64,000 bases of DNA from positions 62,001-126,000 of the forward strand of contig JAMJTW010000028.1 in NCBI GenBank assembly GCA_024281175.1, given 5' to 3'. Within the stretch, counting starts at the first letter, position 1, and each line of letters begins with the position of its first letter. The notes under the pieces were generated by a model. The model made no database searches. It saw nothing but the letters and a program-made list of their open reading frames with translations, and had not been told where the DNA came from. Origin of the DNA: Candidatus Thiovulum imperiosus (lineage in GTDB: Bacteria; Campylobacterota; Campylobacteria; Campylobacterales; Thiovulaceae). This document shows, piece by piece, positions 25,297 through 33,015 of the stretch. Position numbers and translations under genes: made by a program.

Positions 25297-25350
25297 TAAA
25301 AAAGTTTAAGTCAAGTTGAAGTTCTTTTCAAAAAATATAATTTGGTTCGG
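25297..25350 (+). pseudogene. Degenerate higA-like scar (5' piece fused to 3' piece)
   Basis: aaaaaagtttaagtcaagttgaagttcttttcaaaaaatataatttggttcgg resembles 27732-27756 joined to 28028-28060 of the intact higA, joined at the shared gaaNttctttt microhomology. Confidence 0.5.
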
Positions 25351-25367
25351 TGAAAACCAAGCTGAAT

Positions 25368-26213
25368 TTAGAAAAGCTCTATCAAAACTTCATCTTTCCA
25401 AGTTAGATGATATACAGTTTTTTCAGAAGTTTTGGATTTATTTTGAACAAAATCTGAAAACTTTTTCCCTTTTTCAGTAGCTTCCCAAACTTTCTCATTT
25501 CGGGTTTGGAAACCTTTCTCTTGAAGTATCAGATTTAGTTTTCGAGGGTTTGGCTTTGAAAGGTCTTTTGTAGAAACACTAGCTTTCACCTCATCGGAGT
25601 ATTCTCCTTTTCGGACAATTTCACAAAGCTCTGTTACGGTGATGAAATTTTCTTCGGTTTGAACTCCCTCTTTTTTAGCAATTTTGAGAAAGTCCATACC
25701 TGTTTCTTCTTTTACTGCTCTGTTGCAAGTAATTGCTAACTCTTCAAGTCTGGTAATTCCAAGTTCAAGAAAAACATCTTTGAAATTGAAAAATACATCT
25801 CTGAAAAGAGCTATCAGCTTTGCTCTCTCTTCTATTTTTTGAAGATTTGAAGTTTGGGAAATGGAATAGCTTCCTGTTTTTCGGATAGATGGTAGAACTT
25901 CTGAAGCTACCCAATGGCGAAATACAACAGCTAAAGATTTTCTTGAAGCGAAAACAAATTCATAAAGACCTATTTCGGAAACAACAGTTAAATTCTGAAC
26001 TCCACCTTCAGTTTGCAGGGGGTGAGTTAAAATCACCCCCTCTAAATCTATTCCATTTTCTTCATATCTTTTTCTTAAATCTCTAATAGCTCCTTTGCTA
26101 TCTTTTAAACCCAGAACTTCTGCTAAATCTTTTGCTACAAAGTAAGGTTCATTTCCAATTCTGACTGTTCTGATTGTGAATTTTTGAAATGAGAATGGTA
26201 TAATTTTTGACAC
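25368..26213 (-). CDS. BRO-N domain (phage antirepressor-like) protein, copy 1
   Basis: FVAKDLAEVLGLKDSKGAIRDL...LTVVSEIGLYEFVFASRKSLAVVFRHWVASEVLPSIRKTGSY is a BRO-N signature. C-terminal half nearly identical to the 28391-29209 product. Confidence 0.85.
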   Translation of the reverse strand: MSKIIPFSFQKFTIRTVRIGNEPYFVAKDLAEVLGLKDSKGAIRDLRKRYEENGIDLEGVILTHPLQTEGGVQNLTVVSEIGLYEFVFASRKSLAVVFRHWVASEVLPSIRKTGSYSISQTSNLQKIEERAKLIALFRDVFFNFKDVFLELGITRLEELAITCNRAVKEETGMDFLKIAKKEGVQTEENFITVTELCEIVRKGEYSDEVKASVSTKDLSKPNPRKLNLILQEKGFQTRNEKVWEATEKGKKFSDFVQNKSKTSEKTVYHLTWKDEVLIELF

Positions 26214-26287
26214 TAAATTCCTTTGTGTAATTTGTTGGGCAAAACAATTATACTGTAAAAAGGGGTTTAGTTCAATGATTTGTAGAT

Positions 26288-29654: not shown

Positions 29655-31574
29655 ATGACAATTTTAGTAGAAGAGTTGTTTAATAAAAAGTCAAAAATAA
29701 ATTTTTGGAACATCAACAATGAATTTAAATATGAAGTACAAGAAAAGTATGCAAAAGAATTTTTATCATCAATTAACTCTAGTAAAGTTCAAAAATTAAA
29801 TGAACAACAAGTTTTTCAATATGAACAGAGGAATATTAATGGAGAGATATTTTATTTTTTAAAAAGTAATTTTCGAGACATAATTATTATCTATTCTATT
29901 CTTAAATATTTAGTAGGTGAAGACTATAAGAAAGATGAAACATTGGAAAATAGATTGAAAAAATATGGAACAGATATTTTTTCAATGATTGATTTTGAAA
30001 AAAGAGATTTAAAAACATCTTTTCAAAGTGGTAATCGTTCTTCTTTAAAAATGGCAATTGAAAGTTTTCCAGAAATAAAAGAGATAAGAGAGTTAGAAAA
30101 AGACAAAGAAAAAACTCAATCGAAAATTGATGGAATCATAAAAAAACTTGATAGTTCAAGTTTAATTCAGATAGACAATGAAGAGCTTAAAAGTTTGAAT
30201 AGCAAGAAAGATAGTTTTATCAAAAAAATTAGAGAAAAGAAATCAAGATTTATAGATATTATCTTGAACATGCAACTTGAATTTCATGAAATAGAAATGG
30301 ATAATAGTGTAGGTGATGATGAGAACATAACAATAATATCAAAATTAAAAATTAGATTATTGAAGTTTATGCCAAATCAAAAAGATTTTATTAATGATAA
30401 TATAAAAGAATTAGAATATCTTATTGAAGAGATAATGGAGTCTTCTCATAAAAAACCTATTAACTTAAAAAGAAAATCTATTGTTCATGATTTTAGTGAA
30501 TTTTCTATCTCTCTTTTTCCAAATCAAATTTCTATTCAAGGATTAAAAGATGATTTAGTAAAACTAAATGATAAAGATAAATATCTTCAAAATTACTTAA
30601 ATGTAAATTTTTATGGGGTAAATGTTCCTAAGAATGAAATTGAAAATCGTATTAAGAAATTTTTTAAATCTAAAAATTCTCATGAACTTATTCTGAATAT
30701 AGAAAATTTCCTAAAAGATATAAAAATTGGAAATGATTCAAATAAAATATATATTTTTATAAAGAAACTATTTGAAGAGTTTTTAAGATTTTCCCGTGTT
30801 TACAAGAATTTTATTTTAAAATCTGAAGTGTCCTATAAATATTTTCAACTATTACTTTTTGATAGAAGTTTACGACCGTTGATAATAAAACTATTTGATA
30901 TAGGAATGCTTGATAAAGTTTTAGACCATTTAACAATAATAGATATAGCGATAAAATTAGAAGAAAGCATAAATTCAAACAAATACGATAAGGTCAAAAC
31001 TATATTTAATGATAGTAGATTTGATATTTATCAAAATATTGAAAATGAGAAGTTTCTTTTAGAAAAACTTAACTCTATTATTTTACATAAATTCAAAAAC
31101 AAAGATAACTTTAGAAAACATATTCAAAATTCTCTTTATGAACGAAATCAAAAGATTTTAAAGTCTCATATCTTATTTACTGATGCAATTGAAAGAGAAA
31201 TAGATTTTCAAGAAATAAAAGAGAGTTGGAATGAAATAGAAGTTGAACACATATTTCCACAAGAACCAAACTTTGATAGAAGTAAAGAAAATACAAATAC
31301 CCTTGATATTGTTGATTACTCTCTTCAATATTTTGATTTTCAAGATTTATTAGAATATGAACTATATAACTCTCTTACTGGAAACATGCTTTTGTTAGAA
31401 AAAAAACCTAATAAAGAAGCTGGTAATAAGTTTCCTGAAGAGAAATGGAAACCATATGAACTATCAAAATTAGTTGTAAATTTTAAAGTGAGGGATTTTA
31501 AATCAAAAAATAATATCGTAGAAAGAACAGAAGAGTTGCTAAAACCTTATTTAGATATGTATGATAATTTGTAA
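29655..31574 (+). CDS. Protein with C-terminal DUF1524/GmrSD-C-like HNH motif; N-terminal region unrecognised (candidate defence nuclease)
   Basis: EVEHIFPQEPNFDRSKENTN...YNSLTGNMLLLEKKPNKEAGNKFPEEKW resembles the H-I-x-P-Q ... GN-x-L-L-x(n)-N...F-x-x-K pattern of DUF1524. Long Lys/Glu-rich coiled-coil-like N-terminal part. Confidence 0.7.
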   Translation: MTILVEELFNKKSKINFWNINNEFKYEVQEKYAKEFLSSINSSKVQKLNEQQVFQYEQRNINGEIFYFLKSNFRDIIIIYSILKYLVGEDYKKDETLENRLKKYGTDIFSMIDFEKRDLKTSFQSGNRSSLKMAIESFPEIKEIRELEKDKEKTQSKIDGIIKKLDSSSLIQIDNEELKSLNSKKDSFIKKIREKKSRFIDIILNMQLEFHEIEMDNSVGDDENITIISKLKIRLLKFMPNQKDFINDNIKELEYLIEEIMESSHKKPINLKRKSIVHDFSEFSISLFPNQISIQGLKDDLVKLNDKDKYLQNYLNVNFYGVNVPKNEIENRIKKFFKSKNSHELILNIENFLKDIKIGNDSNKIYIFIKKLFEEFLRFSRVYKNFILKSEVSYKYFQLLLFDRSLRPLIIKLFDIGMLDKVLDHLTIIDIAIKLEESINSNKYDKVKTIFNDSRFDIYQNIENEKFLLEKLNSIILHKFKNKDNFRKHIQNSLYERNQKILKSHILFTDAIEREIDFQEIKESWNEIEVEHIFPQEPNFDRSKENTNTLDIVDYSLQYFDFQDLLEYELYNSLTGNMLLLEKKPNKEAGNKFPEEKWKPYELSKLVVNFKVRDFKSKNNIVERTEELLKPYLDMYDNL

Positions 31575-31592
31575 TTTCCCCAAAAGGGGAAA
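31572..31592. terminator. Hairpin at stop codon of the HNH gene, next to atpD stop
   Basis: taaTTTCCCCaaaaGGGGAAAg. Confidence 0.6.
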
Positions 31593-31608
31593 GAAGAAAA
31601 GAAACTAA

Positions 31609-33015
31609 CTACTTCTTATTAGCTTTTTCGATAGCTTCTTCAATATTTCCAACCATGTAGAATGAGTTTTCTGCCATGTGGTCATATTTTCCTTCAAGAA
31701 TTCCTTTAAATCCTGCGATTGTATCTTCAAGTGAAACATATTTACCTGGAGAGCCTGTAAATACTTCTGCTACGAAGAATGGTTGAGATAGGAATTTCTC
31801 GATTTTTCTTGCTCTCTCAACAGTAGCTTTATCCTCTTCAGAAAGTTCGTCCATACCAAGAATTGCGATGATGTCTTGTAAGTCTTTATACTTTTGAAGA
31901 ACTGCTTGAACACCTCTAGCTACTCCGTAATGCTCTTCACCTAAAATTACTGGGTCGAGAAGTCGGCTTGTAGAGTCTAGTGGGTCTACCGCTGGATAGA
32001 TACCTTTTTCAGCAATCTTTCTATTTAAAACAGTAGTTGCATCAAGGTGAGCAAAAACAGAAGCTGGAGCAGGGTCAGTCAAGTCGTCCGCTGGAACATA
32101 AACAGCTTGAACAGAAGTGATTGAACCATTTTTAGTTGATGTAATTCTCTCTTGTAAAGCACCCATCTCTCTAGCTAATGTTGGTTGGTATCCAACAGCC
32201 GATGGAATTCTTCCAAGAAGTGCAGACATCTCACTACCAGATTGAGCAAATCGGAAGATGTTATCGATAAACATAAGAACATCTAGCCCTTTCTCATCTC
32301 TAAAGTATTCAGCCATTGTAAGACCTGTAAGAGCAATTCTATTTCTTGCACCTGGAGGCTCATTCATCTGACCATAGCAGAGAGCAACTTTATCAAGAAC
32401 ATTCGAGTCTTTCATCTCATAATAGAGGTCATTCCCCTCTCTTGTTCTCTCACCAACACCAGCAAATACAGAGTATCCAGAGTGTTTGTAAGCAACATTG
32501 TGAATAAGTTCCATGATGATTACCGTTTTACCAACACCAGCACCACCGAAGAGACCAACTTTTCCACCTTTTGCATAAGGTGCTAAGAGGTCTACAACTT
32601 TAATTCCAGTTTCAAACATCTCTGTTGAAGTAGATTGGTCTACTAAATCTGGAGCTTCTCGGTGGATAGACCATTTTGGAGCGTCTGGATTTACAGGTTC
32701 GCCGTCATCGATAACATCACCAACAACATTGAAAATTCTTCCGAGAACTTCTTCACCAACTGGAACTTTAATTGGATCACCAGTTGCTGTTACATCTGTT
32801 CCTCTCACAAGTCCTTCAGTCAAATCCATTGCAATAGTTCTAACTCTGCTATCTCCGATGTGTGCAGCAACTTCTAAAACGAGCTTTTGGGCATTTCCAT
32901 CTACTGTGTAATTTACCTCAAGAGCATCGTTGATTGCTGGAAGATAACCGTCAAACTCAACATCTACAACTGGTCCAATTACTTGGACAATTTTACCAAT
33001 CATATTTTCAGCCAT
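31609..33015 (-). CDS. atpD: F0F1 ATP synthase subunit beta
   Basis: [52 protein letters not shown]. Confidence 0.97.

Follow-up and report, generated by a model that had tools for sequence, protein, structure and literature searches.

Behind atpD in the genome of Candidatus Thiovulum imperiosus (Campylobacterota), two look-alike units stand one after the other, each combining a gene for a BRO-type protein with a gene for a helix-turn-helix (HTH) protein, and the question they raise is whether such a cassette belongs to the ATP synthase locus or to something larger. They lie in the stretch of 64,000 nucleotides analysed here (the window), which covers positions 62,001 to 126,000 of contig JAMJTW010000028.1 in assembly GCA_024281175.1. 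An earlier note made from the letters of this stretch had proposed a conserved BRO/HTH control cassette set against atpD, with an exchangeable slot for divergently transcribed cargo. The cassette is a genuine repeated two-gene unit and the two copies are indeed parallel, but they are not tied to atpD, and they look like members of a genome-wide set of interchangeable switches, not like a control unit of the ATP synthase. A control module of phage type is present here as a large chromosomal family of mosaic build, in which the ends are constant and the DNA-recognition parts exchanged. We give a probability of about 0.6 to the evolutionary account that this family is derived from phages and has been multiplied, homogenised at its ends and exchanged in its middle within Thiovulum chromosomes; any particular function is placed much lower.

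All genes named in the earlier note are open where and on the strands it had put them, and profile matches confirmed the families that it had guessed: two Bro-N proteins, a leucine-rich repeat (LRR) protein with an HTH, HigB with an HTH antitoxin, a 77-aa HTH protein and an HNH protein. In both units, as at most other loci, the HTH gene comes first and the BRO gene follows on the same strand. The parts of the two cassettes are these:

25351..25913, minus strand: constant 3′ end of cassette 1 (BRO C-domain and 18 nt beyond the stop), 88.7% DNA identity to 28373-28936
25368..26213, minus strand: BRO1, antirepressor with Bro-N, a helical linker and the constant C-domain (PF02498, 1.8e-20; phrog_130 anti-repressor Ant, 3.8e-47)
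26288..27328, minus strand: LRR-HTH fusion with C-terminal HTH (PF23598, 1.8e-24), its HTH block in common with HTH2
26461..26524, minus strand: constant HTH block of cassette 1 (helices 1-2, encoding EENLVKKTCRELGITQKELA), 96.9% DNA identity to 29484-29547
28373..28936, minus strand: constant 3′ end of cassette 2, 88.7% DNA identity to cassette 1
28391..29209, minus strand: BRO2, antirepressor with Bro-N and the constant C-domain (PF02498, 1.5e-26; phrog_130, 1.9e-48; AlphaFold2 pLDDT 83)
29320..29553, minus strand: HTH2, 77-aa Cro/CI-type HTH protein (HTH_3; PF01381, 3.2e-8; phrog_4779, 5.4e-15)
29484..29582, minus strand: constant 5′ end of cassette 2 (ribosome-binding-site region and HTH helices 1-2), matched at several further loci of the genome with 94-99% DNA identity along 93-100 nt

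Judged by its sequence, the HTH part of the LRR-HTH fusion is the repressor-like half of cassette 1. When the region is compared with itself, as had been proposed, four shared blocks appear: the BRO C-part (564 nt, 28373-28936 against 25351-25913, 88.7%), the 5′ part of the HTH gene (64 nt, 96.9%), the 3′ part of atpD (31596-31827 against 28079-28306, 97.8%) and an internal piece of atpD (32164-32223 against 28306-28361).

The cassette is found far beyond this locus. With BRO2 as a tblastn query, 42 places were found in the genome of the window (G000), and at a stricter cut-off 27, 15 and 7 places in the other Thiovulum genomes G001, G004 (closed) and G002, with 0-1 in the more distant genomes searched. 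Bro-N gives 16 matches in G000 and at most four in any of the 297 other genomes of the class (298 in total). Searched with a model of the HTH, G000, G001 and G004 yield 31, 40 and 34 places, about 27, 28 and 32 of them strong (E at most 1e-15); the rest of the class sample has 0-9 copies per genome, with at most 18 matches scored per genome. The 34 copies of G004 fall into 16 clusters, nine of which hold more than one copy, mostly spaced by about 1.2 kb. Besides the usual order of HTH and BRO on one strand, a second, rarer arrangement has a small divergent HTH gene facing the BRO gene. The neighbours examined in Thiovulum are ordinary genes, among them Mg-chelatase-type, queuosine synthesis, biotin-carboxylase-type and formyltransferase genes, and the window locus itself is flanked by atpD, DUF1007 and NicO genes. 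Thus, the supposed link to atpD fails, since about 30 cassettes stand at unrelated loci in G000 and in two other Thiovulum genomes without the atpD repeat, an outcome that the earlier note itself had named as refuting its proposal. In other families of Campylobacterota, short tandem runs of the same HTH with a period of about 600 bp were also observed (G216:C20:7855-9994 and C5:30642-32723; G223:C28; G218:C5).

The copies are mosaics. EENLVKKTCRELGITQKELA is common to the HTH proteins almost without exception, and the sequences part from the recognition helix onward; the second protein has its C-domain in common with its relatives and draws its N-domain from at least four families (Bro-N, KilA-N, ORF6N-like and pRha). 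When nearest neighbours are counted at other loci only, the constant HTH block has its closest match within its own genome in 34 of 40 cases (14.3 expected, p<0.001), and the DNA of the antirepressor C-domain in 15 of 19 (6.3 expected, p 0.0014). The variable half of the HTH does so in 13 of 40 (p 0.68), the BRO-N protein in 14 of 35 (p 0.45) and the DNA of the antirepressor N part in 7 of 18 (p 0.41). The ends are homogenised within each genome, and the middles have relatives across species. BRO1 combines both in one gene: in the N-part it shares 79% identity with a G001 cassette that adjoins an acyltransferase-domain gene and 43% with BRO2, whereas in the C-part the identity is 90% with BRO2 and 52% with that G001 cassette. 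Direct capture of the variable HTH halves from the phages at hand was considered and set aside: viral contigs and other Campylobacterota gave a better match than the best one from another Thiovulum genome in only 5 of 40 cases.

The pair itself is of phage kind. The same HTH gene followed by an antirepressor gene is found in IMG/VR viral contigs, which were collected with the HTH alignment, near an integrase (L206, L207), a terminase (L215) or a CI-like repressor (L219); scans of genomes and viral sequences with BRO2 alone found nothing. The AlphaFold2 model of BRO2 has a separate C-terminal helix/strand domain; its best matches in a viral structure library are Bro-N/antirepressor proteins (E down to 2.9e-12), and in PDB it has a weak match to a granulovirus protein domain (E 0.02). 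Phage Ant proteins (Pseudomonas phage F10, Acidithiobacillus phage AcaML1; PHROG 130) align with BRO2 almost end to end, at about 30% identity over 95-99% of its length. However, phage Ant occupies one place per phage genome, and the regulator near the AcaML1 antirepressor (Gp9) is without the ITQKELA block.

The earlier note knew of no described system with this layout. The gene pair is in fact known as the phage Xre-Bro/Ant pair, in which a small Xre/Cro HTH gene is paired with a gene for a protein with Bro-N and Ant/KilA-C domains (PMC2701414), and the Thiovulum cassettes likewise consist of an Xre/Cro HTH gene beside a same-strand antirepressor gene with an N-terminal Bro-N (or KilA-N, ORF6N or pRha) domain. 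Makarova et al. (2009) described Xre-Bro as a phage feature "not in bacterial genomes" (PMC2701414), whereas Thiovulum has about 30 chromosomal copies with tandem arrays, constant ends and swapped middles. The XreA-Ant and Bro-XreB pairs of S. pneumoniae are of the same kind, including an antirepressor with N-terminal and C-terminal domains, but are prophage-borne, present in one copy each and shown not to act as toxin-antitoxin (PMC4257102). Rhs genes, which diversify by C-terminal displacement (PMC2935791), are similarly a dispersed family with a conserved and a swapped part; the cassette differs from them in that two regulators stand side by side, variable on the inside and constant on the outside. 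The searches, which covered open-licence papers, found no account of such a spread through chromosomes, of tandem arrays or of a mosaic with constant ends and a variable middle, and the main text of the paper that lists Ca. Thiovulum imperiosus (PMC9938260) does not mention a BRO family. New, within that scope, are the mosaic and the chromosomal multiplication, and not the pair.

According to the account we favour, each unit is a member of a phage-derived family built from a small Xre/Cro-type HTH gene and a following same-strand antirepressor gene of the BRO, KilA, ORF6N or pRha type. The constant ends may serve as homology arms, through which cassettes would duplicate and convert by homologous recombination and would also gain new middles, namely the recognition helix and the antirepressor N-domain. 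Most likely the pairs work as repressor and antirepressor, with their targets lying outside the cassette: the putative repression by the HTH protein, relieved by the antirepressor, is likely to occur at operators elsewhere, either of resident or incoming phages or of nearby stress or defence genes. The shared surface of helices 1-2 and the shared antirepressor C-domain would form a putative common contact, and the swapped parts would pick the DNA target. If functional, the family would amount to a set of regulators made diverse through the exchange of domains, possibly one that stores or triggers phage responses in an uncultured giant sulfur bacterium. The role of phage-type antirepressors in bacterial chromosomes also becomes testable, since one genome offers about 30 natural variants on a common scaffold.

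Several points weigh against this account. The last 55 residues of the antirepressor, as protein, find their nearest match within their own genome in 20 of 35 cases only (p 0.08), and the match of the C-domain to ANT/KilAC is weak (ANT E 0.004 in L139 and 0.097 in L103), with none in BRO1 or BRO2 by profile scan. A strictly co-evolving pair of HTH and BRO-N is not supported: the two reassort, their linkage is weak (Mantel p 0.07), and some pairs of cassettes reach 0.66-0.73 in the variable half of the HTH and about 0.2 in BRO-N. The lack of clustering by genome could also come from a weak signal where sequences evolve fast, although several pairs from different species reach 66-73% identity in the variable region. 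The loci analysed were picked by their similarity to BRO2. Many cassette copies are truncated, which suggests decay alongside use. Finally, in a run of four tandem HTH-antirepressor pairs in G004 (L144:4562-9270) three have nearly identical upstream sequences and differing recognition helices, which argues against autoregulation specific to each cassette.

The alternative that survives best, and that may yet be true even if we doubt it, is passive, selfish accumulation: prophage regulatory modules would have been left behind or copied by recombination, with their ends kept by gene conversion and no benefit to the host. The phage origin and the numerous truncated copies fit it, as do the 1-9 HTH copies in genomes of other Campylobacterota. 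Against it stands the constant HTH block, in which the fraction of identical codons is 0.72-0.82 within genomes and 0.61-0.63 between them; helices 1-2 are thus kept as protein across three species while synonymous codons differ, which points to selection on the protein. Moreover, ten neighbours of G004 arrays are housekeeping or unidentified genes, with no phage gene among them. A prophage proper was also rejected, since structural or integration genes were found neither at the window locus nor among these ten neighbours.

Next comes the unlikely suggestion that the cassettes control, or sense for, a defence by cell suicide, an incoming phage repressor or antirepressor tripping the switch. 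Recurrent neighbours of the cassettes are caspase-like and LRR proteins and toxin-antitoxin and nuclease genes: in G000, 8 of 12 caspase-domain genes have a cassette no more than 3 kb away (about 1.1 expected, p 1.6e-6), at L101:5320-7056 a caspase domain fused to leucine-rich repeats adjoins an antirepressor gene, and the window locus has higBA and a GmrSD_C/HNH gene. The LRR-HTH fusion of unit 1 fits such company. The association is weaker elsewhere (3 of 9 in G001, 1 of 4 in G004), orientations vary, G015 has 10 caspase matches but one BRO place, and the proximity could also reflect shared insertion hotspots; it is an association and not a mechanism. It would be more daring still, and a little less probable, to regard the genome-wide repertoire as an inheritable protein-based library of phage-specific switches, for superinfection immunity or as triggers of caspase-type suicide, whose recognition parts are exchanged with phages and other strains through the shared ends. 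Two side observations concern the caspase genes: Thiovulum genomes have up to 13 caspase-domain matches and G015 has 10, and a near-perfect inverted duplication with cassettes and a caspase gene (L093/L094, contig C25 of G000, about 22-52 kb) is either real or an assembly artefact.

How the two units came to stand at atpD is a separate matter, for which the remaining features of the locus are needed:

25294..25349, plus strand: higA-like gene remnant in which the two ends of higA meet (46 nt at 87% to the higA start, 34 nt at 85% to its end)
28064..28082, no strand: atpD-type terminator hairpin, copy 1 (TTTCCCC-N5-GGGGAAA)
28079..28361, minus strand: decayed second atpD copy, 3′ part 28079-28306 and internal piece 28306-28361 (97.8% and 86.7% DNA identity to atpD)
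31575..31592, no strand: atpD terminator hairpin, copy 2 (TTTCCCC-N4-GGGGAAA)
31609..33015, minus strand: intact atpD (76-95% protein identity to atpD of 19 relatives)

What had been taken for a truncated 3′ end of atpD is a real atpD copy, but a longer one from which about 340 nt were deleted internally, as follows from the two separate atpD pieces that match unit 1. The hairpins, in which the cargo genes had been said to stop, are both real (exactly two TTTCCCC..GGGGAAA hairpins in 64 kb against 0.01 expected), but they probably belong to atpD and not to the cargo, since a similar hairpin is found 3′ of atpD in the related genome G001. No further copies of the atpD 3′ repeat exist in the genome of the window; the repeat is local and was probably left by recombination between allelic insertions. 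A single crossover inside atpD that placed the HNH-HTH2-BRO2 variant beside the higBA-LRR-HTH-BRO1 variant would account for the layout. The decayed atpD copy between the two alleles would then be a leftover of recombination, as would the remnant at 25294-25349 next to BRO1, which the two-unit layout had overlooked and which, from its sequence, is a decayed higA-like gene and a trace of an earlier insertion. Insertion at the atpD 3′ end by an integrase was rejected: no integrase was found in the nine open reading frames scanned (24020-31574), and in place of the short att repeat of a site-specific integrative element there is a repeat of 228 nt, far too long, together with the separate internal piece of atpD.

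The doubled locus might instead be an artefact in which two strain variants of a pooled sample were fused in assembly. The T. imperiosus sample consisted of several hundred cells with a strain heterogeneity of 66% (PMC9938260), and the atpD piece is almost identical to atpD. Nevertheless, we think it improbable, as this piece has an internal deletion, substitutions and a hairpin loop of its own; the cassette family, in addition, does not depend on the atpD locus, and tandem arrays are present in the closed Movile genome (G004).

In the relatives of the order that were examined, atpC comes directly after atpD, and behind the two there are as a rule TolQ/R-like genes (the gene names are a reading of the sequences); this arrangement is broken only in G000 and G001, where atpC is found on a separate contig and has other genes upstream of it. 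The atp operon has thus been split in the genus, and insertions have since gathered behind atpD. In G001 there is no BRO gene within 955 bases behind atpD. Two Thiovulum genomes have the atp operon divided at this point, between atpD and atpC, and most other relatives examined have it undivided.

It remains to consider the genes that face the cassettes, and the putative operators between them:

27371..27387, no strand: dyad GTTACA-N5-TGTAAC (6-bp dyad in 26% of shuffles)
27405..27698, plus strand: HigB-type toxin gene (PF09907, 1.6e-31; PADLOC PD-Lambda-2_A, 2e-42)
27695..28063, plus strand: HigA-type antitoxin gene (PADLOC PD-Lambda-2_B, 1.2e-41, profile positions 1-120 of 402)
29584..29601, no strand: dyad AGGTTT-N6-AAACCT (6-bp dyad in 54% of shuffles)
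29655..31574, plus strand: 639-aa candidate nuclease with a C-terminal GmrSD_C/HNH domain (PF07510, 9.6e-9; PF13395, 0.011)

That the cassette is a local control unit of its divergent cargo, with the HTH protein on the dyad repressing both directions and BRO relieving it, is quite improbable. The layout of the window locus invites it, as the starts of the HTH and cargo genes lie head to head and 77-102 nt apart in both units. However, the upstream neighbour of 40 cassettes is another cassette in 13 cases, a co-oriented gene in 20 and a divergent gene in 7, two of which are the window's own, so a divergent cargo slot, found in 7 of 27 non-tandem cassettes, is not the rule. The dyads exist in both units but are within chance, since 26% and 54% of dinucleotide-shuffled intergenic regions carry at least one perfect 6-bp dyad, and they are no evidence of operators. 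Shared cassette-specific operators were rejected for the same reason and because different HTHs, as in the array described above, have almost identical upstream sequences. The cargo does differ between the units, higBA in one and the HNH gene in the other; the HNH gene has no relative in the other genomes of the order searched or in plasmids, and higA is sporadic among the relatives searched, as expected for horizontally acquired genes. Neither cargo could be assigned to a known defence system: of PD-Lambda-2, protein A is matched in full length and B only at positions 1-120 of 402; the 639-aa protein has the C-terminal domain of the type IV restriction enzyme GmrSD, with no N-terminal one (DUF262), and nothing in PADLOC, PHROG, NCBIfam, the plasmids or the relatives searched matches it as a known defence protein. 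Its single-sequence fold (pLDDT 33) is unusable.

A toxin-antitoxin pair of a BRO/Ant toxin and an Xre antitoxin is very improbable, for although Xre-Bro was entered as a toxin-antitoxin-like pair (PMC2701414) and the overproduced Bro and Ant of S. pneumoniae inhibit growth, their Xre partners failed to neutralise this effect (PMC4257102).

Lastly, an interspersed repeat of 100-180 bp with inverted ends (GTCATTTCGA...GCGATTGAGAAATCT...) occurs in the window at 354-450 and 16354-16540 and at many other loci of G000, in many copies on both strands, often adjoining cassettes and elsewhere too.

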